A stretch of 64,000 bases of DNA from an uncultured Pseudodesulfovibrio sp. (GTDB taxonomy: Bacteria; Desulfobacterota; Desulfovibrionia; Desulfovibrionales; Desulfovibrionaceae). Location of the stretch: contig NZ_OY776488.1 in NCBI RefSeq assembly GCF_963675635.1, positions 909,740-973,739 on the forward strand, given 5' to 3'. The translations under genes were made by a program, and so were the position numbers. Under the pieces are notes generated by a model that saw nothing but the letters and a program-made list of their open reading frames with translations, was not told the DNA's origin and did no database searches. The number at the start of each line of letters is the position of its first letter. The stretch's first letter is position 1. Positions 42,558-53,921 of this stretch are shown here, one piece after another.

Positions 42558-44582
42558 ATGGGCAACAAAATCGGAGTGTACATCTGTCATTGCGGTTCGA
42601 ATATCGCGGGCAAGGTCGATTGCGAAGACGTCGCCAAGTATGCCGGAAGACTCAAGGACGTGGCGGTCTCACGAGACTACCAATTCATGTGTTCGGACCC
42701 GGGCCAGGAAATGGTTATCAAGGATATCCGGGAGCATGGTCTCAACCGGGTCGTTGTGGCATCCTGTTCACCTCGCTTGCATGAAAAGACATTTCAAAAG
42801 GCATGTGCCCGAGCCGGGTTGAATCCCTACCTCATGCAGCACGCCTGTATCCGGGAACACTGTTCATGGACAACTGCAGACCCAGTCGAAGCGACAGCCA
42901 AGGCCAAGCATATTGTCGAAGCGGCTGTGGACAGGGTGGGGGATCATGAGAAGCTCTTTTCTCGTGAAGTAAACGTCCTGCCAGATGTCATGGTGGTGGG
43001 TGCCGGTATCGCCGGTATTCAGGCGTCGTTGGATATCGCCAAGTCTGGACACAAGGTTCACTTGGTGGAGAAGAGTCCGTCCATTGGCGGGCATATGGCG
43101 CAATTCGATAAGACGTTTCCAACCTTGGACTGTGCCGCCTGTATATCAACTCCCAAGATGGTCGCCGTCTCACAGGAACCGAACATCAATCTTATGACAT
43201 GGAGTGAAGTCGAGGATGTCTCCGGTTTTGTCGGCAATTATACTGTAACCGTAAAGCATAAGCCTCGGTTCGTTAACGAAGCAATCTGTACAGGCTGCGG
43301 AGCCTGTCTGGAAAAATGTCCGACAAAGGCTTTGAACGAGTTTAATGAAGGGCTTTCCATGCGCAAGGCCATTTACCGAAACTCTCCGCAGGCCGTTCCA
43401 AGTACGCCGGTTATCGACGGCAATATCTGTAAGAAGATTACCAAGGATAAGTGCGGCATTTGTCAGACCATCTGTCCCACAGGAGCGATTGATTATACGA
43501 TGAAAGAGACCCGTGAGATCTTAAATGTCGGCTCAATCGTCCTGGCTACCGGGTATGACGCCATGGACCCGACACCATTACGCGAATACGGTTTCGGACG
43601 TTTCGACAACGTCTATACTGCGCTGCAATTCGAACGACTTAACAATGCGGTCGGCCCCACTGAGGGGAAAATAGTCATGAAAAACGGTGAACCGCCCAAG
43701 AGTGTCGGCATAATCCATTGCGTAGGCAGCCGTGACAAAAACTACCACGAATATTGTTCCCGCACCTGCTGCATGTACGCGTTGAAGTTCGATCATCTTA
43801 TCAAGGACAAGGTTGGTCACGACACCAAGGTGTATAATTTCTACATTGATATGCGTTGCTTCGGTAAAGGATACGAAGAATTTTTCAAACGGGTGCAGGA
43901 AGAGGGTGTGACTTTTATTCGAGGTCGTCCAGCAGAAGTCGTGCAGGAAGACGACAAGCTGGTCATTGTCGGTGAGGACACCTTGCTCGGCATAAACGTA
44001 CGGGTGCCGGTGGACATGGTCGTTCTTTGTACCGCCATGGAAGCGCGGAGTGATACCAATGAAGTGGCACGCATCTTCGGAGTGGCCCAGGGCCAGGATG
44101 GGTTCTTCCTTGAAGAACACCCCAAACTCGGTCCGGTTTCCACCGCTACGGACGGTGTTTTCTTAGCCGGAGCCTGTCAGGGGCCAAAGGATATCCCGGA
44201 TGCCGTGGCTCATGCCTCTGGAGGAGCAGCACAGGCTCTGGCACTTGCTGCCAAGGGGACAGTCTCCATATCTCCGACGACATCGTGGATTGATCCGGAT
44301 GTGTGCATCGGATGCAAGGTGTGCATCAATCTTTGTCCATACTCGGCCATCGAGTTCGATGAGCGGCGAAATGTCTCGGTTATCAACGAAGCCATGTGCA
44401 AGGGCTGTGGGAGCTGTGCAGGGTACTGTCCGAGTGGAGCCGCACAGATCAAACACTTCAACCAGATACAGATATTCAATGAAATTGATGGAATGCTCGG
44501 CATGATGTTCGACCCGATACTTTTCGATGCCGGGGGGAAAAGAGCTGAGGCAGTCTACGACAATCAATCTGGCGAATCCTAG
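42558..44582 (+). CDS. hdrA: heterodisulfide reductase subunit A (HdrA, full-length)
   Basis: A 674-residue iron-sulfur flavoprotein, the usual electron-bifurcating core of Hdr complexes. Residues 1-135 form the N-terminal domain. The FAD motif V-G-A-G-I-A-G-I-Q is at about 147-155, with the conserved L-D-C-A-A-C-I-S-T-P-K-M near 190. A 4Fe-4S motif is at C244-x2-C-x2-C-x3-C, followed by a Cys-rich insert (K-C-G-I-C-Q-T-I-C-P). Two C-terminal ferredoxin motifs end the protein (C-I-G-C-K-V-C-I-N-L-C-P and C-K-G-C-G-S-C-A-G-Y-C-P). Cys is present where some relatives carry Sec. GGGAGG precedes the ATG. Confidence 0.92.
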   Translation: MGNKIGVYICHCGSNIAGKVDCEDVAKYAGRLKDVAVSRDYQFMCSDPGQEMVIKDIREHGLNRVVVASCSPRLHEKTFQKACARAGLNPYLMQHACIREHCSWTTADPVEATAKAKHIVEAAVDRVGDHEKLFSREVNVLPDVMVVGAGIAGIQASLDIAKSGHKVHLVEKSPSIGGHMAQFDKTFPTLDCAACISTPKMVAVSQEPNINLMTWSEVEDVSGFVGNYTVTVKHKPRFVNEAICTGCGACLEKCPTKALNEFNEGLSMRKAIYRNSPQAVPSTPVIDGNICKKITKDKCGICQTICPTGAIDYTMKETREILNVGSIVLATGYDAMDPTPLREYGFGRFDNVYTALQFERLNNAVGPTEGKIVMKNGEPPKSVGIIHCVGSRDKNYHEYCSRTCCMYALKFDHLIKDKVGHDTKVYNFYIDMRCFGKGYEEFFKRVQEEGVTFIRGRPAEVVQEDDKLVIVGEDTLLGINVRVPVDMVVLCTAMEARSDTNEVARIFGVAQGQDGFFLEEHPKLGPVSTATDGVFLAGACQGPKDIPDAVAHASGGAAQALALAAKGTVSISPTTSWIDPDVCIGCKVCINLCPYSAIEFDERRNVSVINEAMCKGCGSCAGYCPSGAAQIKHFNQIQIFNEIDGMLGMMFDPILFDAGGKRAEAVYDNQSGES

Positions 44583-44588
44583 GAGGCA

Positions 44589-45017
44589 ATGATGAATAGT
44601 GAGTTTGAACCGACCATTCTGGCATTTGTCTGCAACTGGTGCACGTACACTGCGGCAGATCTCGCTGGAACGTCTCGGATGATACAGCAGCCAAATTTGC
44701 GCCTGGTTCGCGTCATGTGTACCGGCATGGTGGACCCCAAGTACATTGTGAAGTCGCTCCTTTCCGGGGCTGATGGCGTGCTCGTGAGTGGATGTCACCC
44801 CGGTGACTGCCACTACATTAACGGCAACTATAAGGCCCGACGCCGGGTCAAGTTACTCAATGAAATCCTGCCTCAGTTCGGCATTGCTCGTGAACGCGTC
44901 AAGCTGACCTGGGTCGGAGCAAGTGAGGGGAATGAGTTCGCGGAAACAGTGAATAGTTTCATTAATGAAATCAGAGAACTCGGTCCCATGGAAGCACGTA
45001 CCATGGCCGTAGTCTAG
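44589..45017 (+). CDS. mvhD: MvhD-type [2Fe-2S] electron-transfer subunit
   Basis: A 142-residue protein of the methyl-viologen-reducing hydrogenase delta family. Cluster cysteines are visible in F-V-C-N-W-C-T-Y, in R-V-M-C-T-G-M-V-D and in S-G-C-H-P-G-D-C-H-Y. MvhD normally connects HdrA to a hydrogenase or formate dehydrogenase. None is encoded here, so the electron donor is open. It starts 6 bp after the hdrA stop with AGGAGG upstream; an alternative ATG lies one codon later. Confidence 0.9.
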   Translation: MMNSEFEPTILAFVCNWCTYTAADLAGTSRMIQQPNLRLVRVMCTGMVDPKYIVKSLLSGADGVLVSGCHPGDCHYINGNYKARRRVKLLNEILPQFGIARERVKLTWVGASEGNEFAETVNSFINEIRELGPMEARTMAVV

Positions 45018-45035
45018 ACACTGGGAGGTGGCAAC

Positions 45036-46181
45036 ATGGCGACCACTGTGAAGATAGCGGTTGAAAACAACAACCCGGTTGTGGCGATACAGGGGTTTCT
45101 GCGTGGTCTGTTGGAAAATGATTCACTCGGAGGTGTCGTGGTGCCGGTCCATTTATTCGACAAAGGACTCCCCATGCCCACACTGGTGACCGACCACGAT
45201 CAGCTTTCTGGTGCTGACCCGTTGGCTCCGTCTTTTCCGATGAACAGTGCCAAACTTCTGTCCCGTTTGACACGCGGTCAGTCCGGTGAGCGTATTGCCG
45301 TGGTTATGAGACCGTGTGAAATTCGAGCGTTTGTTGAGTTGGTCAAGCTCAACCAGGGGAGTCTCGACGATGTCATCATCGTGGGGATGGACTGTATGGG
45401 AGCTTATAACAACACTGATTACAAAGCTTTCGTCGATGGCCGGGATGCATTTGAGGCCACCCTCGCTTTTCAGGGGCAGCACGGCGGGACCATTGAAACA
45501 GCAATCAACGGCGTGGACATCGCACCGGCATGCAGGTCGTGTGAATTTCCGGCTCCGACCAATGCAGATATAGTTATCGGATTGGCGGGTGCAGACCTGC
45601 ATACAGCCATTCCGGTTGTGGCGGACAGCGCGCGGGGCGAGGCTTTGCTCAACGGACTCGGGCTGCCCGATATGGAAGCCAGTGGAAGAGAAGCAGTTCT
45701 CGAGTCGCTCATTAAGGTGCGCTCAGAACATCGTGACGCCATGATCGAGGCAACGCAGGCAGTCACCGGCACACTGACCGATCTGTCCGAATATCTGTCG
45801 AACTGTGTGAACTGCTACAATTGCAGGGTGGCCTGTCCTGTCTGTTACTGCAAGGAATGCGTGTTCAACACGGATGTGTTTGAGCACAAGCCATGGCAGT
45901 ACATGGGGTGGGCCAAACGCAAGGGAAGCCTCAAACTGCCGACAGATACCATCTTCTATCACCTGACCCGCATGGCGCACATGTCCATGGCCTGTGTCGG
46001 ATGTGGACAATGTTCCAATGCCTGTCCCAACGACATTCCCGTCATGGAGCTGTTCCGCACGGTTGCAGCGCGGACGCAGAAGAGCTTCGATTATGTGCCG
46101 GGCAGAAGTCTGGAAGAATCCCCGCCACTTTCGGTTTTCAAGGAAGACGAGTTCCAGGACACAGTATCGCACATGGCCTGA
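45036..46181 (+). CDS. FrhB/FdhB-like iron-sulfur protein of the Hdr cluster
   Basis: A 381-residue protein related to coenzyme F420 hydrogenase/dehydrogenase beta subunits, with a C-terminal iron-sulfur region. R-P-C-E-I-R-A-F near residue 90 and G-M-D-C-M-G near 115 match the FrhB domain. Two Cys-rich stretches follow: N-C-V-N-C-Y-N-C-R-V-A-C-P-V-C-Y-C near 257 and C-V-G-C-G-Q-C-S-N-A-C-P near 318. In bacteria such proteins probably use a flavin and an unknown donor rather than F420. It sits between mvhD and the second hdrA. Confidence 0.82.
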   Translation: MATTVKIAVENNNPVVAIQGFLRGLLENDSLGGVVVPVHLFDKGLPMPTLVTDHDQLSGADPLAPSFPMNSAKLLSRLTRGQSGERIAVVMRPCEIRAFVELVKLNQGSLDDVIIVGMDCMGAYNNTDYKAFVDGRDAFEATLAFQGQHGGTIETAINGVDIAPACRSCEFPAPTNADIVIGLAGADLHTAIPVVADSARGEALLNGLGLPDMEASGREAVLESLIKVRSEHRDAMIEATQAVTGTLTDLSEYLSNCVNCYNCRVACPVCYCKECVFNTDVFEHKPWQYMGWAKRKGSLKLPTDTIFYHLTRMAHMSMACVGCGQCSNACPNDIPVMELFRTVAARTQKSFDYVPGRSLEESPPLSVFKEDEFQDTVSHMA

Positions 46182-46209
46182 TGACAGGTCCCAGTTTCGG
46201 GAGGACGTT

Positions 46210-49200
46210 ATGAGGAAGCAATACGGAGCAATGGTGGTGGGCGCAGGAATCGGTGGTATACGCGCTGCCCTCGACTTGGCTGTTACCGGTCATAAGGTCG
46301 CTCTTATCGATCGTCGTCCGAGTCACGGCGGAATTTTAAGTCAGCTTGACCACCAGTTTCCGTCAGATCATTGCGGCATGTGCAAGATGTTGCCGCTTAT
46401 GTCGCGGGATTCGTCTAGCCAGTATTGTTTGCGCAAAGGCTTGTTCCACGACAATATTGACATCATGCTTTCCACAGAAGTGGCGGATGTCGAGGGAGAA
46501 CCCGGCAAATTTTTGGTCTCACTGAACCGGACGTCTCCCTTGGTGGACCCAACAAAGTGTGTAAGCTGTGGCAAGTGTTCCGAGGTATGCCCGGTACGTG
46601 TGGATAGTGAATTTAACGCGGGGTTGACCAAGAGGGCGGCCATTTATCTTCCTGTACCTCATGCCATTCCCAATCATTATGTTCTTGATCTCGACAACTG
46701 CTTACGGTGTTGGAAATGTCACGAGACATGTCCTACCGGGGCTATTGATTTCAAATTCGAAGAACGCAAGGACTTCCATATTCTTGTGGTCGATCAGGAT
46801 GAAGCTGTTCAGGAAATGATGCAGGGGAGCCTCGATGAACAGAATTTCCCACTTCATTTTACCACCAGTGGACGCGAGGCCGTTGACATGCTCGCCGAGT
46901 CCGATCAGTACCGACTTGTTCTGCTTGGCTTGAATGTCAATGACATGGACGCAGAGCGTGTGCTGACCCGTTGTCAGGAACTCCACCCGGACATGCCTGT
47001 GGTCATTTTGGCAGATGACAGTCAGACTGAAGCCGCTACAGAACGTGTCGCGCAGGGAGCACGCGAATACCTGACAAAGCCGCTTGCTGCGAAGAAATTC
47101 GTGCCGTGGCTCGACAAGCTGTTCGTTCGCATACTCTCGGACACCACTGAGGCTTTGGAAGTTGGAGCTATCGTTCTGGCTGGCGGATTCGAATGTTATG
47201 ATCCTAAGACAGATCCCTTGGCTTCATCGGAAATATGGAATCATAGTCATCCCGGCGTACTCACTGCTGTCGAGTTTGAAAGGCTTCTCAGCGGTACCGG
47301 GCCCACCGGGGGCAAATTGTTGCGCCCAGGAGATGACAAACCGATCAAGAAGATCGCCTGGATTCAATGTGTAGGCTCTCGCGACGTGCAGCGAAATGCG
47401 GATTTCTGTTCCGGTATATGTTGCATGTTTTCTATCAAGGAATCCCTTCTCGCAAAGAAGGTGACCAATGGTGAAGTAGAAACTTCTATCTTTTACATGG
47501 ACATGCGCACATCGGGGAAAGGATATCAACGATATCGTATCAACGCCGAAAAAGACAAGGGCGTGCGTTTTGTGCGGAGTCGTCCACACTCTCTTCTGCC
47601 GACCGATGATGGGCAAGATATCAAAGTTGAGTACTTTGCCGAAGACGGGACGCTTATTACTGAAATCTATGACATGGTCGTACTGGCTGTGGGTGCGCGT
47701 CCCCCAAAGAAGACAGACTCACTTGCGCAGACCGCAGGTATTGATCTCAATCAGTGGGGTTTTGCGGACACACAGACATATTCCCCAGAACGTACGAGTG
47801 CAGTCGGTATCTTTGCGGCCGGTGCATTTGGTGAGCCCAAGGACATATCCGAATCCGTAATTCATGCCGGGGCAGCTGCTCAGGCTGCATCCCGCATCAT
47901 CAAGGCGTATGACGTGCTGGCGGGTATCCAGTCAGAACCGCAACCGGAGTTCCCGGATGTATCGCGGGAACCGCCACGGACGCTTGTTGCTGTCTGTGCC
48001 TCTTGTCCGACATTGGAACAGACTATCGACATCGTGGCACTGAGTGAGCGTATGGCACATGTGCACTCGGTCCGAAAAGTTGTGAGCGTTGGAAGCGCGT
48101 GCACTTCCGAAGGGTGGGGTGACATTGAACAAGCAGCCAAAGAATTCAAACCCAACCGTATTATCATAGGCGCGTGTATGCCGTACGCCTACATTCCACG
48201 CCTCAAGGAACTTGGCAAGACCATCGGTCTGAATCCGGCACTTATGGATGTGGTGGATATTTATACCCCCACCTTCGGCACAGGAACTGACGAACACACG
48301 GTAGCAAAGGAAATCTACGCATCCCTGTCTACGGCTGTTGCGCGGTTGCAGGGCGTCGATCCGGCACCGTCGCCGAATATGGTTGACGTTGAGCGGTCAG
48401 CACTTGTTGTCGGCGGTGGATTGGCCGGTATGACGGCAGCCATGTCCATTGCGGATCAGGGCTACGGAGTTTGCCTGGTGGAATCCGAGGAAGAACTCGG
48501 CGGGATGGCCATGCGGCTGCATACCCAGCTCGATGGTTCTGACCCACATAAGTATATGGAAGAGCTGATTTCGCAGGTGGAAAAGCACCCGAACATCAAG
48601 GTGCTCAAAGATTCCCGTGTGGTTTTGTCGCGCGGCAGCGCTGGACATTTTCGTTCCGCCATTGCCAGTCCGGAAGGCGTTTTCCCGCTGGAACATGGTG
48701 TCTCTATTCTTGCGACCGGTGCACATGAGGCCAAGGTTTATGAAAGCGGCCTGTGCGTCCACAAGTCGGTGATGACTCATCTCGCGCTGGAAGAACAACT
48801 TGCCACAGGTCAGCTTGACGCAGGCATGCTCTCCTCGGTTGCCATGATTCAGTGTTGGCGCAAGCCAGGTGAGGACCGCACATATTGTAGCAAGGTGTGT
48901 TGCCCGGAGATGGTCAAGAACGTGCTTGCTCTCAAGGAGCGCAATCCAGACTTGCCGATCTATGTGTTTTATCGAGACATCATGATGCCGGGTTTCCTTG
49001 AAACATACTACACTCAGGCGCGGAAGGCTGGGGCCATTTTCATCCGATATGAACCGGATAATCCGCCACAAGTGAAATTTGAAGATGGCAAGCCGGTCAT
49101 CACGGCCTACGACCCAATTCTCAGAGAGAACATAGTCCTCCGCCCAGACATCCTATCTCTTTCCAGTGGGATGGAACCCAATGACATGGAAGATATCAGG

Positions 49201-49644
49201 GAAGTTTTTGGAGTTGATATCAACGAGGACGGTTTCTATCAGGAAGCGGACTTCAAATGGAGGCCCGTGGATTTCCTCAAACAGGGTGTTTACGCGTGCG
49301 GAACCGGATTAGCTCCACGTCGAATGGGAGAAGCTGCGGCTTCTGCCAAGGCGGCTGCTCAACGGGCATTGCGAATCCTCAATGCTGAGACCATTGCCCG
49401 CGAAACAGTCGTGGCCTCGGTCCGACACTCCCTGTGTTCTCTGTGTCAGGCATGTGTTGCAGCCTGCCCGTATGGTGCACGAGTGCTGGATATGGAACTC
49501 GGTCAGATTAAGGTGGACGAAATCCTGTGTCAGGGGTGTGGCTCCTGTGCGGCTGTTTGTCCAAATAGTGCCACGGTTCTCAAAGGATTTCACGACGGCC
49601 CAATGATGTCCGTCATTGATGCGGCACTCGAAGAACCGGCATGA
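46210..49644 (+). CDS. double HdrA-like iron-sulfur flavoprotein with inserted receiver (REC) domain
   Basis: An 1144-residue protein. The first HdrA unit starts at the N-terminus (V-G-A-G-I-G-G-I-R; C-x2-C-x2-C-x3-C motifs at about 118-180). At about 188-310 a CheY-like receiver is inserted: I-L-V-V-D-Q-D (D195, D197), L-V-L-L-G-L-N (Gly240 where Asp is phosphorylated) and L-T-K-P-L (Lys290). The HdrA unit then resumes (V-G-A-I-V-L-A-G-G-F-E). A second FAD unit (V-V-G-G-G-L-A-G-M-T) begins near 735, and two C-terminal ferredoxin motifs close the protein. ATG 46210 with GGGAGG is chosen over a longer frame from 45994 that overlaps the previous gene. Confidence 0.88.
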   Translation: MRKQYGAMVVGAGIGGIRAALDLAVTGHKVALIDRRPSHGGILSQLDHQFPSDHCGMCKMLPLMSRDSSSQYCLRKGLFHDNIDIMLSTEVADVEGEPGKFLVSLNRTSPLVDPTKCVSCGKCSEVCPVRVDSEFNAGLTKRAAIYLPVPHAIPNHYVLDLDNCLRCWKCHETCPTGAIDFKFEERKDFHILVVDQDEAVQEMMQGSLDEQNFPLHFTTSGREAVDMLAESDQYRLVLLGLNVNDMDAERVLTRCQELHPDMPVVILADDSQTEAATERVAQGAREYLTKPLAAKKFVPWLDKLFVRILSDTTEALEVGAIVLAGGFECYDPKTDPLASSEIWNHSHPGVLTAVEFERLLSGTGPTGGKLLRPGDDKPIKKIAWIQCVGSRDVQRNADFCSGICCMFSIKESLLAKKVTNGEVETSIFYMDMRTSGKGYQRYRINAEKDKGVRFVRSRPHSLLPTDDGQDIKVEYFAEDGTLITEIYDMVVLAVGARPPKKTDSLAQTAGIDLNQWGFADTQTYSPERTSAVGIFAAGAFGEPKDISESVIHAGAAAQAASRIIKAYDVLAGIQSEPQPEFPDVSREPPRTLVAVCASCPTLEQTIDIVALSERMAHVHSVRKVVSVGSACTSEGWGDIEQAAKEFKPNRIIIGACMPYAYIPRLKELGKTIGLNPALMDVVDIYTPTFGTGTDEHTVAKEIYASLSTAVARLQGVDPAPSPNMVDVERSALVVGGGLAGMTAAMSIADQGYGVCLVESEEELGGMAMRLHTQLDGSDPHKYMEELISQVEKHPNIKVLKDSRVVLSRGSAGHFRSAIASPEGVFPLEHGVSILATGAHEAKVYESGLCVHKSVMTHLALEEQLATGQLDAGMLSSVAMIQCWRKPGEDRTYCSKVCCPEMVKNVLALKERNPDLPIYVFYRDIMMPGFLETYYTQARKAGAIFIRYEPDNPPQVKFEDGKPVITAYDPILRENIVLRPDILSLSSGMEPNDMEDIREVFGVDINEDGFYQEADFKWRPVDFLKQGVYACGTGLAPRRMGEAAASAKAAAQRALRILNAETIARETVVASVRHSLCSLCQACVAACPYGARVLDMELGQIKVDEILCQGCGSCAAVCPNSATVLKGFHDGPMMSVIDAALEEPA

Positions 49645-49669
49645 GTCGGAAATATTGAGGAGTAACACC

Positions 49670-50236
49670 ATGAGCGAAGCAGTCAGAAAGACATGGAGCC
49701 CAGCCGGGGACGAAGTCGAGTTCGTGCTCGCCAGTTTAAAGAAAGAAGTCGGAGCCTGTATGCAGTGCGGTACCTGTACGGCATCCTGTCCGAATGGATT
49801 TGCCATGGATATCACTCCGCGAGCCATGTGGCGAATGATCCAATTCGGTATGCTCGATGAAATTCTTGCGAGCCATACCTTCTGGATGTGCTCGTCCTGT
49901 TACACTTGCACGCTACGGTGTCCGCGAGGTCTCAAACTCACTTCGGTCATGGCCTCCCTGAAGAGACTGTCAATGCTCAGCGGCAGTGGGCGTAAGAACA
50001 GTGCGTTCTACAGAGCGTTCATGGAGAACGTGGAATCGCATGGGCGTATGCAGGAGATGGGGATGATGAGCAGCTATTTCTTCAAGCGAATAGATACCCC
50101 GACTTTGCCGCTCGAATTCTTACCGCTGGGTATAAAGATGATGACTAAAGGCAAAGTGCATATGCCAGGCGGCGGGCAGGGCGGCATCCTCAAGCCCATG
50201 TTTGCCAAGGCTCGCGAAATGGAGGGATTATCATGA
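49670..50236 (+). CDS. hdrC: heterodisulfide reductase subunit C
   Basis: A 188-residue protein with two 4Fe-4S motifs: C30-x2-C33-x2-C36-x3-C40-P and C74-x2-C77-x2-C80-x3-C84-P. It relays electrons between HdrA and the catalytic HdrB. ATG 49670 with TTGAGGAG upstream is chosen over an in-frame start at 49616 lying inside the preceding gene. The stop overlaps the hdrB start (ATGA), so the two are coupled. Confidence 0.92.
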   Translation: MSEAVRKTWSPAGDEVEFVLASLKKEVGACMQCGTCTASCPNGFAMDITPRAMWRMIQFGMLDEILASHTFWMCSSCYTCTLRCPRGLKLTSVMASLKRLSMLSGSGRKNSAFYRAFMENVESHGRMQEMGMMSSYFFKRIDTPTLPLEFLPLGIKMMTKGKVHMPGGGQGGILKPMFAKAREMEGLS

Positions 50237-51186
50237 AATACGCATACTATCCCGGTTGTTCCCTGACAGAGAGCGCGGCAGAATTTGATGTATCCACTCG
50301 TGCGGTCATGTACCACCTCGGCGTCGAGTTGGTCGAAATTCCGGACTGGACATGCTGTGGCGCAAGTGCGGCCGAACCGGTGAGTAAGCTCATGAATTAC
50401 GCGCTTCCAGCACGCAATCTGGCCATCACCGAGAAGGAACTCGCCGGTATTGACGTGATCGCACCGTGTTCTGCCTGCTACCTCAATCTGCTTAAGGTCA
50501 ACAGGGAGGTTGTAGGCGACAGGAGTCTTCACGGTAAGGTCAACGAGGTGCTGGCTGCGTCCGGTCTGATGTACTCAGGCAAGGTTGCGGTAAGGCATAT
50601 CCTTGACGTCTTTATCAACGATGTGGGCGCGAAGGTTATCGAGCAAAAAGTAACCAACAACCTCAAGGGTATGAGAATCGCTCCCTATTACGGATGTCAG
50701 ATTTTGCGACCATACCCAGTGTTTGATGATCCGAAAAACCCCATGTCCATGCACCGCGTACTTAAAGCCCTGGGAGCGGATGTGCATGAGTGGGATCATG
50801 GCAATACCTGTTGCGGCGCTTCACTCATGATGGGGCACCGTGCAGTAGCTATGCAGTCTGTGACAGCAATCCTTTCTGACGCAGAGGGAGCAGATGCCAT
50901 CGCTACGGTCTGTCCGTTGTGTCAGATGAATCTTGAAGCATACCAGTCGCAGGCAAAGAAGCTAGGAGCTAAACCAATCCCCATTCTCTATCTGACACAA
51001 CTGATGGGCGAAGCTTTCGGGTTGGAGGATGGGGCCATTCAATTTGAGAAAAACCTGACCATATCGGCTGATGTCAGGAGGGATATCGCCAACAAGGTCT
51101 GGAGTCAGCCGAACCAGACTGAAAGCGGCGACGATATGGCGGAAGTAAGGGCGGATAACCTCAGCAAGGGGGCAAGTCATGTTTAA
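50233..51186 (+). CDS. hdrB: heterodisulfide reductase subunit B
   Basis: A 317-residue protein with two CCG domains, which carry the non-cubane [4Fe-4S] clusters of the disulfide-reducing site. First set: Y-Y-P-G-C-S, T-C-C-G-A-S (about 39-44) and P-C-S-A-C-Y (about 78). Second set: Y-Y-G-C-Q, T-C-C-G-A-S (about 195) and V-C-P-L-C-Q. All cysteines are present. The physiological disulfide in a sulfate reducer is unknown. It overlaps hdrC by 4 bp and the stress-protein gene by 8 bp. Confidence 0.92.
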   Translation: MKYAYYPGCSLTESAAEFDVSTRAVMYHLGVELVEIPDWTCCGASAAEPVSKLMNYALPARNLAITEKELAGIDVIAPCSACYLNLLKVNREVVGDRSLHGKVNEVLAASGLMYSGKVAVRHILDVFINDVGAKVIEQKVTNNLKGMRIAPYYGCQILRPYPVFDDPKNPMSMHRVLKALGADVHEWDHGNTCCGASLMMGHRAVAMQSVTAILSDAEGADAIATVCPLCQMNLEAYQSQAKKLGAKPIPILYLTQLMGEAFGLEDGAIQFEKNLTISADVRRDIANKVWSQPNQTESGDDMAEVRADNLSKGASHV

Positions 51187-52081
51187 GGACATCATCGTAG
51201 GGGTCACTCCTACCGGAATCGACAATTGCGCAGTTCAGGCAGCAATGGAATTCGCTCGCAAGTTCGAGTCCAAGCTCTACCTCGTTCATGTAGCGGGCAT
51301 GGCTCAGGGCTGGGGGTCCATCGAGACGCTGGAACCTTCGGGTGAGACCTCCCGGATCAAGGAACAGATCACTGACGCTTACGCCGAGATGCTTGAAGGC
51401 ATTCCTGATTCACAGATTATTGTTGTCCCGGGTATCCCGCATAACGAGATTCTGCGTCTGGCCCGAAAGAAGAATACGGATCTTATCGTCATGGGGCCGC
51501 ACACCAAGGAATACGAGGAAACCCGTTCCAAGATGTGGGGCATGACAGGTAGCACACTTGAACGTGTCAGCCAGAAGGCACGATGTCCTGTAATGATCGT
51601 ACATAAGGACGTGGTCTGCAAGGAACCGTTGTATAGCAACATTCTTGTTGCCACCGACTTCTCAGAACAGGCTGAATGTGCTGTGAGTTACGGCGGTCAA
51701 ATGGCCCGTCAGTACAAGGCCAACCTGAAGGTCATGCATGTCGTGGAAAATGGAAACAGTCATTCTGACGTTATCGGACGACTGGAAGAGGTCTATGGTC
51801 CTCGTCTCGATGGCATCGGCGAATGTGTCTTCGAGGCTTGTCGCGGTAAGCCGTCCATGGAAATTCTGCGCATGGGGAATCAGTCCAATGCGGACCTGAT
51901 CATCATGGCTCACCATTCCAAGGAGAGTGATCCTGAAAAGGCCTTCCTTGGCTCTACAGTGACTCAGGTTGCACTCAACGCTCCATGCCCGACTATGAGT
52001 GTCAACCGCCACTTCGATCTGCGTTGTGGTTTGATGTACGATCAGACCGGCGCAACGGTTCAGACTGAAGCAATGGTTTAA
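51179..52081 (+). CDS. universal stress protein with two UspA domains
   Basis: A 300-residue tandem UspA protein. The first domain begins F-K-D-I-I-V-G-V-T-P-T-G and contains D-L-I-V-M-G-P-H-T. The second begins Y-S-N-I-L-V-A-T-D-F-S-E and has D-L-I-I-M-A-H-H-S ... F-L-G-S-T-V-T-Q-V, an ATP-binding-type segment. Its start lies inside the end of hdrB, so it is made together with the Hdr subunits. A role in sensing nucleotide or energy state of the complex is a guess. Confidence 0.88.
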   Translation: MFKDIIVGVTPTGIDNCAVQAAMEFARKFESKLYLVHVAGMAQGWGSIETLEPSGETSRIKEQITDAYAEMLEGIPDSQIIVVPGIPHNEILRLARKKNTDLIVMGPHTKEYEETRSKMWGMTGSTLERVSQKARCPVMIVHKDVVCKEPLYSNILVATDFSEQAECAVSYGGQMARQYKANLKVMHVVENGNSHSDVIGRLEEVYGPRLDGIGECVFEACRGKPSMEILRMGNQSNADLIIMAHHSKESDPEKAFLGSTVTQVALNAPCPTMSVNRHFDLRCGLMYDQTGATVQTEAMV

Positions 52082-52131
52082 ACCAGGGGTAGATCTGAAT
52101 AAACGACAGAATGTGAACGACAAACGGTTTT

Positions 52132-52153
52132 CGGGAGCGGGTGACCGCTCCCG
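52132..52153 (+). other. hairpin with GUGA tetraloop inside the hdr operon
   Basis: CGGGAGCGG-GTGA-CCGCTCCCG: a perfect 9-bp stem closed by a GNRA-type loop, between the stress-protein gene and the selenoprotein gene. No T-tract follows, so it is more likely an RNA-stability or processing element than a terminator. Confidence 0.65.
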
Positions 52154-52190
52154 GGAATCCGGTGACATATGTCGCGAAAAGGAGTGAGTC

Positions 52191-53486
52191 ATGGGTGAAG
52201 CAGCGCTACTTATCGAGCCGAAACAATCAGAATTGGTGAACACGATCCGGGGGCTGCTGCCCGATGGTGGCAACCTGAATATGTGCCTCACGTGTGGGGC
52301 CTGTTCCGCAGGGTGTCCTGCCACAGGTATGCATGGTATGGACCCACGCAAATTTGTGCGCTTGGCACTCATGGGGCAGGAGGAAACGATCAGGTCCACT
52401 CCGTGGGTGTGGCTGTGCACCATGTGCAGACGGTGTGTCCATGCGTGCCCCATGGAAGTGGATATTCCGCAGTTGATCTATCAATGTCGTCAGTCGTGGC
52501 CGAGAGAAACTCGTCCCAAGGGTATTCTGGGGTCCTGTGAACAAGCTTTGAACACACCGGGTAACAGCGCAATGGGTGCCTCCAGCGAAGATTTCAAGTT
52601 CGTTGTTGAGGACGTGGCCGAGGAAGTCCGGGAGATGCAATCCGGTCAGGAAAACCTCAAAGTATCCGTTGACAGAAAGGGGGCATATTACTTCCTGAAC
52701 CAGAACTCTCGTGAGCCTGTAACCGAACCGGATGAGATGGTTCCGCTCTGGAAAATACTGAATCTGGTCGGTGCAGATTGGACATACAGCACCAAAGGCT
52801 GGGCCGCTGAAAACTACTGCATGTTTCTGGCCGATGACGAATCATGGGAAAATGTGGTGCGCAACAAAGCTGGCGCTGTAGAAGAACTGGGGTGCAAAGT
52901 CTGGCTCAACACGGAGTGAGGACACGAATTCTACGCAGTCCGGGCCGGACTGCAAAAGTTCAACATCGAACACAGTTTCGAGATGGAAAGTATAATTCGG
53001 CTATATGCCAAGTGGATTCGTGAAGGCAAACTACCCGTTAATTCAGACTGGAATAAAGATCTCGGTGTAACATTCACGGTACAGGACCCGTGTCAGCTCG
53101 TCCGTAAATCACTGGGGGACCCGGTCGCCGAGGACCTTCGTTTTGTGGTTAAATCAGTGGTCGGTGAAGAGAACTTCATAGATATGTGGCCGAGCAAGTC
53201 AAACAACTATTGCTGTGGCGGTGGTGGTGGCTTCCTTCAGTCAGGCTTCTCGGAAGAGCGTCGCCAATATGGTCAAGTCAAACTCGATCAAATCCTCCGT
53301 ACCAAGGCGGACTATTGTATCGCACCGTGTCACAATTGCCACTCACAGATTCATGACCTCAGTGAACATTCCGGCGCCAATTTCCCGGTGGTTCACCTCT
53401 GGACGCTCATCTGCCTCTCACTCGGCATGCTCGGTGAGAACGAACGGGAATATCTAGGAGATGATTTGAAAAACATAGGGTTGTAA
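52191..53486 (+). CDS. HdrD-like (CCG-domain) iron-sulfur selenoprotein (Sec at in-frame TGA)
   Basis: Reading through the in-frame TGA at 52917-52919 gives one 431-residue protein. N-terminal ferredoxin motifs: C32-x2-C35-x2-C38-x3-C42 and C76-x2-C79-x2-C82-x3-C86. The first CCG-type domain ends at L-N-T-E-U243-G-H-E-F, where related HdrD/DsrK proteins have E-C-G-H. The second CCG domain is complete (C301, C341-C342-G, C380-x2-C383). A SECIS-like hairpin follows the TGA. AAAGGAG precedes the ATG. It is the last gene of the hdr operon, probably a disulfide-reducing partner. Ordinary gene calling gives two fragments. Confidence 0.87.
52935..52953 (+). promoter_or_regulatory. SECIS-like hairpin for the HdrD-like selenoprotein
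   Basis: GCAGTCC-GGGCC-GGACTGC: perfect 7-bp stem, 5-base loop starting with G, loop beginning 22 bases past the UGA. This fits the bacterial SECIS pattern well. Confidence 0.78.
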
Positions 53487-53921
53487 GCAGGAAGGGGATA
53501 GGCTCAGAAAAGCCCTGTGCTTCGATCTTTTCGGGGTACAGGGCTTCTATTTATGGCATGAGAAGAACTTGACATGGATGTCGCTCAATGCGTATTTGAA
53601 ACTACATTATTTTAAGGGGTTTTTTTGTCGAATAGTATCGATCTTGTCTGATTCGTTGTTGGCGCAGATTTAAACCACGCGCGCTTGAAGCAACGTAATC
53701 ACGCTGAACAAATCATGGCAGGCCACAGTACGGCCTGAATTGTCTTGATTATTTGGCAGTGAATCACTGTTGATCTCTCGCTGCGTCTGTCGTCAACAAC
53801 ACATTCCTTCCCCAATACACACGAGTAGGACATCGACCTCAATGATCGCTTATCCTATCCGGCTATGACCGGAACACAGGAATATAAATGAGCTGTTCTC
53901 AGCTGATTAAGGAATGAAATA
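53487..53921. other. intergenic region after the hdr operon
   Basis: About 435 bp. Apart from the terminator at 53510-53552 I see no gene, repeat or RNA; it presumably contains the promoter of the acetyltransferase gene. Confidence 0.5.
53510..53552 (+). terminator. terminator of the hdr operon
   Basis: AAGCCCTGT / ACAGGGCTT with a loop of about 19 bases, then CTATTT. Moderate strength. Confidence 0.65.

Follow-up and report, generated by a model that had tools for sequence, protein, structure and literature searches.

A predicted selenocysteine codon within an HdrD-like gene of a soluble heterodisulfide reductase cluster in Pseudodesulfovibrio

Does an in-frame TGA in a gene for an iron-sulfur protein end that gene, or does it encode selenocysteine (Sec)? 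The question is raised by a 64,000-nucleotide stretch of DNA (the window) from an uncultured Pseudodesulfovibrio sp. (contig NZ_OY776488.1, positions 909,740 to 973,739), in which two open reading frames (ORFs), 52191-52919 (242 aa) and 52983-53486 (167 aa), lie in the same frame and are divided by a single TGA at 52917-52919. A sequence-only reading had taken them, with exactly these coordinates, as one gene for an HdrD/DsrK/TmcB-like protein with Sec in place of a conserved cysteine. We find the best explanation to be a single selenoprotein subunit of a soluble heterodisulfide reductase (Hdr) complex, in which an HdrC-like part, bearing two [4Fe-4S] motifs, is fused to an HdrB-like part with two CCG domains, and in which Sec would take part in disulfide cleavage. 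The probability of this overall reading is put at roughly 60%. The features are listed in Table 1.

Public genomes were searched with peptide patterns that did not include the TGA motif. The search confirmed 279 relatives, and the best 80 loci were kept. The column codon was TGA in all 80 of these, and TAA or TAG was found in none. The TGA recurs at 80 loci, on 79 contigs from other assemblies, and so is not a sequencing error. Named species with a TGA copy include Salidesulfovibrio brasiliensis (L010), Halodesulfovibrio spirochaetisodalis (L058) and Desulfonema magnum (L053). The kept loci are those nearest to a Sec query, and therefore 198 genomes of the phylum were searched too. Fifty of the 198 had a match at an E value of 1e-60 or better; among the 67 matches listed, 52 contained one internal TGA and 15 contained no stop. 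When 29 new loci were fetched from this phylum sample, the column held TGA in 25 and Cys in 4.

Three alignments include the window sequence: A2 adds all 80 main copies, A1 adds 61 of them plus 3 further copies, and A3 adds 11 of them plus the 3 further copies of A1. Over the 80 loci, mean identity was 76% on the 3' side of the TGA versus 67% on the 5' side, and codon position 3 was the most variable on both sides. The in-frame TGA is flanked by coding sequence on both sides, which is one criterion for a bacterial selenoprotein gene. An internal start at 52983 (Met265, the would-be start of the second ORF) was rejected as unlikely because no more than 5 of 65 aligned sequences have Met there. 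Mechanical ORF calling does yield two ORFs, as it would if the TGA were a true stop, with two separate proteins made or the gene broken. However, the sharing of the TGA by all 80 kept loci, the better conservation of the downstream part, the scarcity of Met265 and the absence of the stem described below from eight Cys homologues all make a true stop very improbable.

The sequence-only reading had placed the TGA where relatives have the Cys of E-C-G-H. Alignment with paralogues from the window's own genome bears this out: DsrK (463.8 bits; cut-off, 400), TmcB (753 bits; cut-off, 735) and an HmcF-like protein (683 bits over a partial stretch; cut-off, 750) all have Cys in the TGA column, within E-C-G-H. 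A fourth own-genome paralogue has D-C-G-G in place of E-C-G-H. As a separate observation, a second HdrD-like gene with D-C-G-G lies 3' of the Sec gene in loci L003 (11422-12645), L004 (11379-12611) and L009 (11441-12601), and a fragment of such a gene follows the Sec gene in L012; the counterpart in the window's genome lies elsewhere (L095).

The genome contains the complete selA, selB, selC and selD set, with SelA at 609.1 bits, tRNA-Sec (selC) at 81.8 bits, SelB present, and SelD at 334.8 bits, selD itself being interrupted by an in-frame TGA. SelB scored above the TIGR00475 cut-off in 49 of the 50 genomes with a family member. This co-occurrence is no sharp test, because 173 of the 198 genomes in the phylum sample have SelB anyway (by PF09107). 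None of the outcomes that would have undone the sequence-only reading, namely a genome without Sec machinery, homologues without Cys in this column, or a TGA produced by a base error, came true.

A 7-bp hairpin with a G-first loop had also been proposed as a selenocysteine insertion sequence (SECIS). According to the published rules for the bacterial SECIS, the loop has 3-9 nt with G in its first two positions, the upper stem has 4-16 bp, the distance from UGA to loop is 16-37 nt, and the minimum free energy is -7.5 kcal/mol or below (PMC13188914). The hairpin at 52935-52953 agrees with all of these rules, and 22 nt separate the TGA from its loop. A 52-nt segment running from the TGA has a folding energy of -15.9 kcal/mol, and 2 of 200 shuffles were as stable (z -2.58). 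No Rfam family matched 52850-53050 at E values up to 1. Across 81 sequences (78 distinct), 93.2% of the stem cells were paired, with both sides changed in nine cells, and the observed covariation score was reached by none of 500 shuffles. When the stem was shifted to slid registers, 7.5-34.1% were paired.

We then compared stem and codon in the 126 distinct sequences whose match spans residues 230-275. Among homologues of at least 45% identity, five or more of the seven stem pairs were formed in 97 of 97 sequences with TGA versus 0 of 8 with Cys. For more distant Cys relatives the stem was found in 0 of 2 at 33-45% identity and in 2 of 11 under 33%. Related sequences are not independent, and therefore counts are reported and no P value is relied on. 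This link between codon and stem is the strongest test of the predicted SECIS. The stem lies within well-conserved codons, and its outermost pair (19-37) stays open in 32 of the 78 distinct rows, as might be expected if the base pairing simply followed from conservation of V-R-x-G-L in the protein. That explanation is highly improbable, since three pairs have changes on both sides, and since the eight Cys homologues are 52-65% identical, yet none forms five of the seven pairs.

Some results weigh against Sec insertion directed by such a stem. Three pairs changed on both sides is a number that 23 of 500 shuffles reach; the stem was in register in 2 of 7 TGA relatives at 33-45% identity and in 0 of 1 under 33%; and one genome (G033, 94% complete) has a TGA copy with no SelB seen. 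Taking the evidence together, we regard it as nearly certain that SelB and the predicted SECIS would insert Sec at the TGA. More distant subfamilies, with L-P-E or W-P-E followed by TGA and G-H, were also observed (L027 1460-2689, L048 14156-15283, L127 and L129-L132); they have TGA in the column and are mostly without a stem in the window's register.

What kind of protein does the read-through frame encode? Each half separately matches consecutive parts of the HmcF, TmcB and DsrK models, as expected from the architecture first proposed. These were the top NCBIfam models for the whole protein, all below the equivalog cut-off (HmcF, 150.7 of 750 bits; TmcB, 141.9 of 735; DsrK, 112.3 of 400). 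DsrK, TmcB and HmcF share with the window protein two [4Fe-4S] motifs, the E-C-G-H site and, towards the C-terminal end, a complete CCG domain. They differ in that the own-genome copies have Cys, not Sec, and the window protein scores far under the NCBIfam cut-offs. DsrK, TmcB and HmcF are partners in membrane complexes. Of the two CCG domains claimed earlier, the second is complete. The first is degenerate and has no Pfam match: Pfam gave a single CCG match, at residues 296-387, and the full set of cysteine ligands occurs in domain 2 only. The window protein thus lacks the two complete CCG cysteine sets of an HdrB-type active site.

Alignment with EtfD of Mycobacterium smegmatis (PDB 9ojn) indicates that Sec243 probably stands at the CxxC place, two residues from His245, which would be the equivalent of the His capping the non-cubane cluster of EtfD. 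The alignment supports the earlier suggestion that Sec may lie beside a non-cubane cluster site. The two proteins share the fold, the domain 2 cluster ligands and a His two residues past the Cys or Sec, whereas EtfD has in addition a linear [3Fe-4S] cluster in its domain 1 and a membrane part. A selenenylsulfide between C210 and U243 was considered as a general pair and rejected. Among distinct sequences with a match spanning residues 200-390, C210 occurs in 105 of 105 homologues of at least 45% identity and in 0 of 8 more distant TGA-bearing ones, so that it cannot be the partner of Sec throughout the family.

In Hdr, the substrate disulfide is split at two non-cubane clusters, both in HdrB (PDB 5odc), according to the account given with the EtfD structure (PMC13083937). 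HdrB differs in this from the window protein, in which Sec243 would face the remaining non-cubane cluster of domain 2 and replace the second cluster of HdrB. The HdrA flavin would supply electrons, which would reach the non-cubane cluster by way of the two [4Fe-4S] clusters. The substrate disulfide would be cleaved between cluster iron and Sec, with the selenol forming the selenosulfide half and the iron binding the other sulfur, and the selenosulfide would be reduced afterwards. DsrC or a small thiol are candidate substrates. That Sec stands in for the second cluster in this manner, with this electron path and cleavage, is possible at somewhat less than even odds. Compared with HdrB and its two non-cubane clusters, and with EtfD and its non-cubane plus linear [3Fe-4S] clusters, the site could represent a CCG active site of a third kind, in which one non-cubane cluster works with a Sec that fills the place of the absent cluster and takes on half of the disulfide chemistry; we offer this more tentatively still.

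Several considerations count against such a catalytic role. The EtfD alignment is weak by sequence (E 0.0018) and came from a profile of 15 sequences. The EtfD authors, in their discussion of the cluster, hold that the His-capped cluster is non-catalytic (PMC13083937), and the equivalent of the capping His, His245, is conserved in the window family. The same authors note that FadF and DgcB have no cluster cysteines in domain 1, although both are believed to accept electrons from the electron-transferring flavoprotein (ETF). The subunit could be a selenoprotein that serves as an electron wire, in which the non-cubane cluster is capped by His245 in the manner of EtfD and Sec is an extra ligand or redox-protective. 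We consider a wire unlikely, since domain and family annotation of the proteins in the window's cluster showed no ETF gene, and since Sec is typical of redox catalysis. In addition, DsrK, the E-C-G-H relative, is reported to act as the reductant of DsrC (PMC8076601), which also counts for disulfide cleavage. A further point in favor of disulfide cleavage is that Sec has been retained over a wide family despite the repeated rise of Cys forms.

To follow the Sec and Cys forms, we took 125 of the 126 distinct sequences (105 TGA and 20 Cys) into a quick protein tree, one Cys row shorter than 300 aa being dropped; the tree was rooted at its midpoint and contains some long branches and several weak forks. 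The Sec/Cys label changed nine times on the tree, versus 18.8 changes expected by shuffling. The window's subfamily comprises 105 rows (97 TGA and 8 Cys) with a Shimodaira-Hasegawa-like approximate likelihood ratio (SH-aLRT) support of 100, and its Cys rows fall in six separate places. The pattern reads as repeated Sec loss, if the ancestor had Sec. For the five members then known, the 2006 survey scored two Cys-to-Sec and no Sec-to-Cys changes in the GlpC family (PMC1794560). Six of the eight Cys copies share a record or genome with a TGA copy (L013; G036, G070, G080, G132 and G172). In L013 (6585-9253), Cys and TGA copies stand in tandem on one contig, and the Cys copy, with four of the seven pairs in register, does not form the stem.

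The sequence-only reading had hinted that Sec at this position was new, and this did not hold. An 'Fe-S oxidoreductase (GlpC)' selenoprotein family with five members was catalogued in 2006 (PMC1794560), a selenocysteine-containing hdrD4 was reported from Desulfobacterium autotrophicum HRM2 in 2009 (PMC2702500), and a 2026 review lists an 'Fe-S oxidoreductase-like protein' with the motif UGH, predicted with high confidence, while describing the functions of such proteins as largely uncharacterised (PMC13188914). Judged by motif and description in these sources, the window protein resembles the GlpC/UGH family of the former Deltaproteobacteria in being an Fe-S oxidoreductase whose Sec stands in a U-G-H motif. 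It resembles HdrD4, by published description and not by Sec position, in being a soluble HdrD-like subunit that contains Sec and combines an HdrC-like with an HdrB-like part (PMC2702500). The operons described for the GlpC/UGH family have hdrA, frhD (mvhD), frhG and frhA as neighbours (PMC1794560; PMC13188914), whereas the window's cluster has, beside HdrA and MvhD, an FrhB-like protein, a double HdrA, HdrC, HdrB and a universal stress protein (Usp), and the interval 42558-53486 is free of hydrogenase genes. The kind is already known, and the window gene is a further member in an unusual Hdr cluster. We found no open-licence PubMed Central paper that locates the family's Sec with respect to the clusters, though this does not imply that there is none.

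The Sec gene is the last in the window's cluster of HdrA, MvhD, FrhB-like, double HdrA, HdrC, HdrB and Usp. On the same strand and within 7 kb, hdrA was found at 42 of the 80 loci, mvhD at 29, metF or metV at 15, hdrB at 9, a CoA-disulfide-reductase-like gene at 6 and the hydrogenase genes mvhG/mvhA at 5; flanks of 4 kb on either side exist for only 39 loci, the tally is too low for genes that a TGA of their own interrupts, and identities were checked on one representative each. Both hdrA and mvhG/mvhA lie near the gene in L036, L062, L074 and L075, a feature in common with the operons published for the GlpC/UGH family. Because the neighbours vary over the 80 loci, the subunit seems to be common to several HdrA-based complexes. 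As a point against a place in Hdr complexes, 34 of the 80 loci, many on short contigs, are without any of the context genes sought, and the subunit may act alone as well. The metV/metF neighbours, which occur together with hdrA in L029, L037, L040, L060, L064 and L068, suggest a link to methylene-tetrahydrofolate reductase complexes.

Other features of these neighbourhoods were observed. A receiver domain (46774-47109) lies within the double HdrA of the window and also in L002-L005, L008, L009, L014 and L105. The usual phosphoacceptor Asp place holds G in the window and L002-L005, and D in L008, L009, L014 and L105; because of this G, the window's receiver resembles a pseudo-receiver. At 9 of the 80 loci (for example, L023, L026, L028, L047, L053 and L065), a stand-alone receiver of about 130 aa was found on the same strand within 7 kb. 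In L077, L028, L023 and others, nearby frames resemble the C-terminal part of MvhD only, as might be seen if the MvhD gene were itself interrupted by an in-frame TGA in these loci.

Table 1. Positions in the window of the predicted selenoprotein gene, its parts and its neighbours
Feature	Position	Strand	Basis
HdrD-like selenoprotein gene (predicted), 431 residues, Sec at residue 243	52191..53486	+	frame, conservation, family-model matches
In-frame TGA, predicted Sec codon (E-U-G-H)	52917..52919	+	alignment column
SECIS upper stem-loop (predicted), 7 bp, loop GGGCC; stem 52935-52941/52947-52953	52935..52953	+	folding, covariation, published rules
Two ferredoxin-type CxxCxxCxxxC motifs, HdrC-like (C32, C35, C38, C42; C76, C79, C82, C86)	52284..52448	+	
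Degenerate CCG domain 1; Sec243 at CxxC place, invariant His245	52683..52994	+	bounds from the model's secondary structure
Complete CCG domain 2 (C301, C341, C342, C380, C383), predicted non-cubane 4Fe-4S site	53076..53351	+	
HdrA-like subunit	42558..44582	+	
MvhD/FlpD-like subunit, no in-frame TGA	44589..45017	+	
FrhB/FdhB-like iron-sulfur subunit	45036..46181	+	
Double HdrA (1144 aa) with inserted receiver domain	46210..49644	+	
HdrC-like subunit	49670..50236	+	
HdrB-like subunit	50233..51186	+	
Tandem Usp	51179..52081	+	
Terminator-like hairpin just 3' of the read-through stop	53510..53546	+	consensus match alone; 3 sites in 1701 bases vs 1.2 expected

A selenoprotein family that has long been listed but is uncharacterised is now given a likely place at a defined spot of the Hdr/DsrK/EtfD fold, with a testable rationale for its Sec. 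Mechanical ORF calling cuts such genes in two, and they can therefore be missed. The pairs of Sec and Cys paralogues within single genomes are natural material for testing the benefit of selenium.
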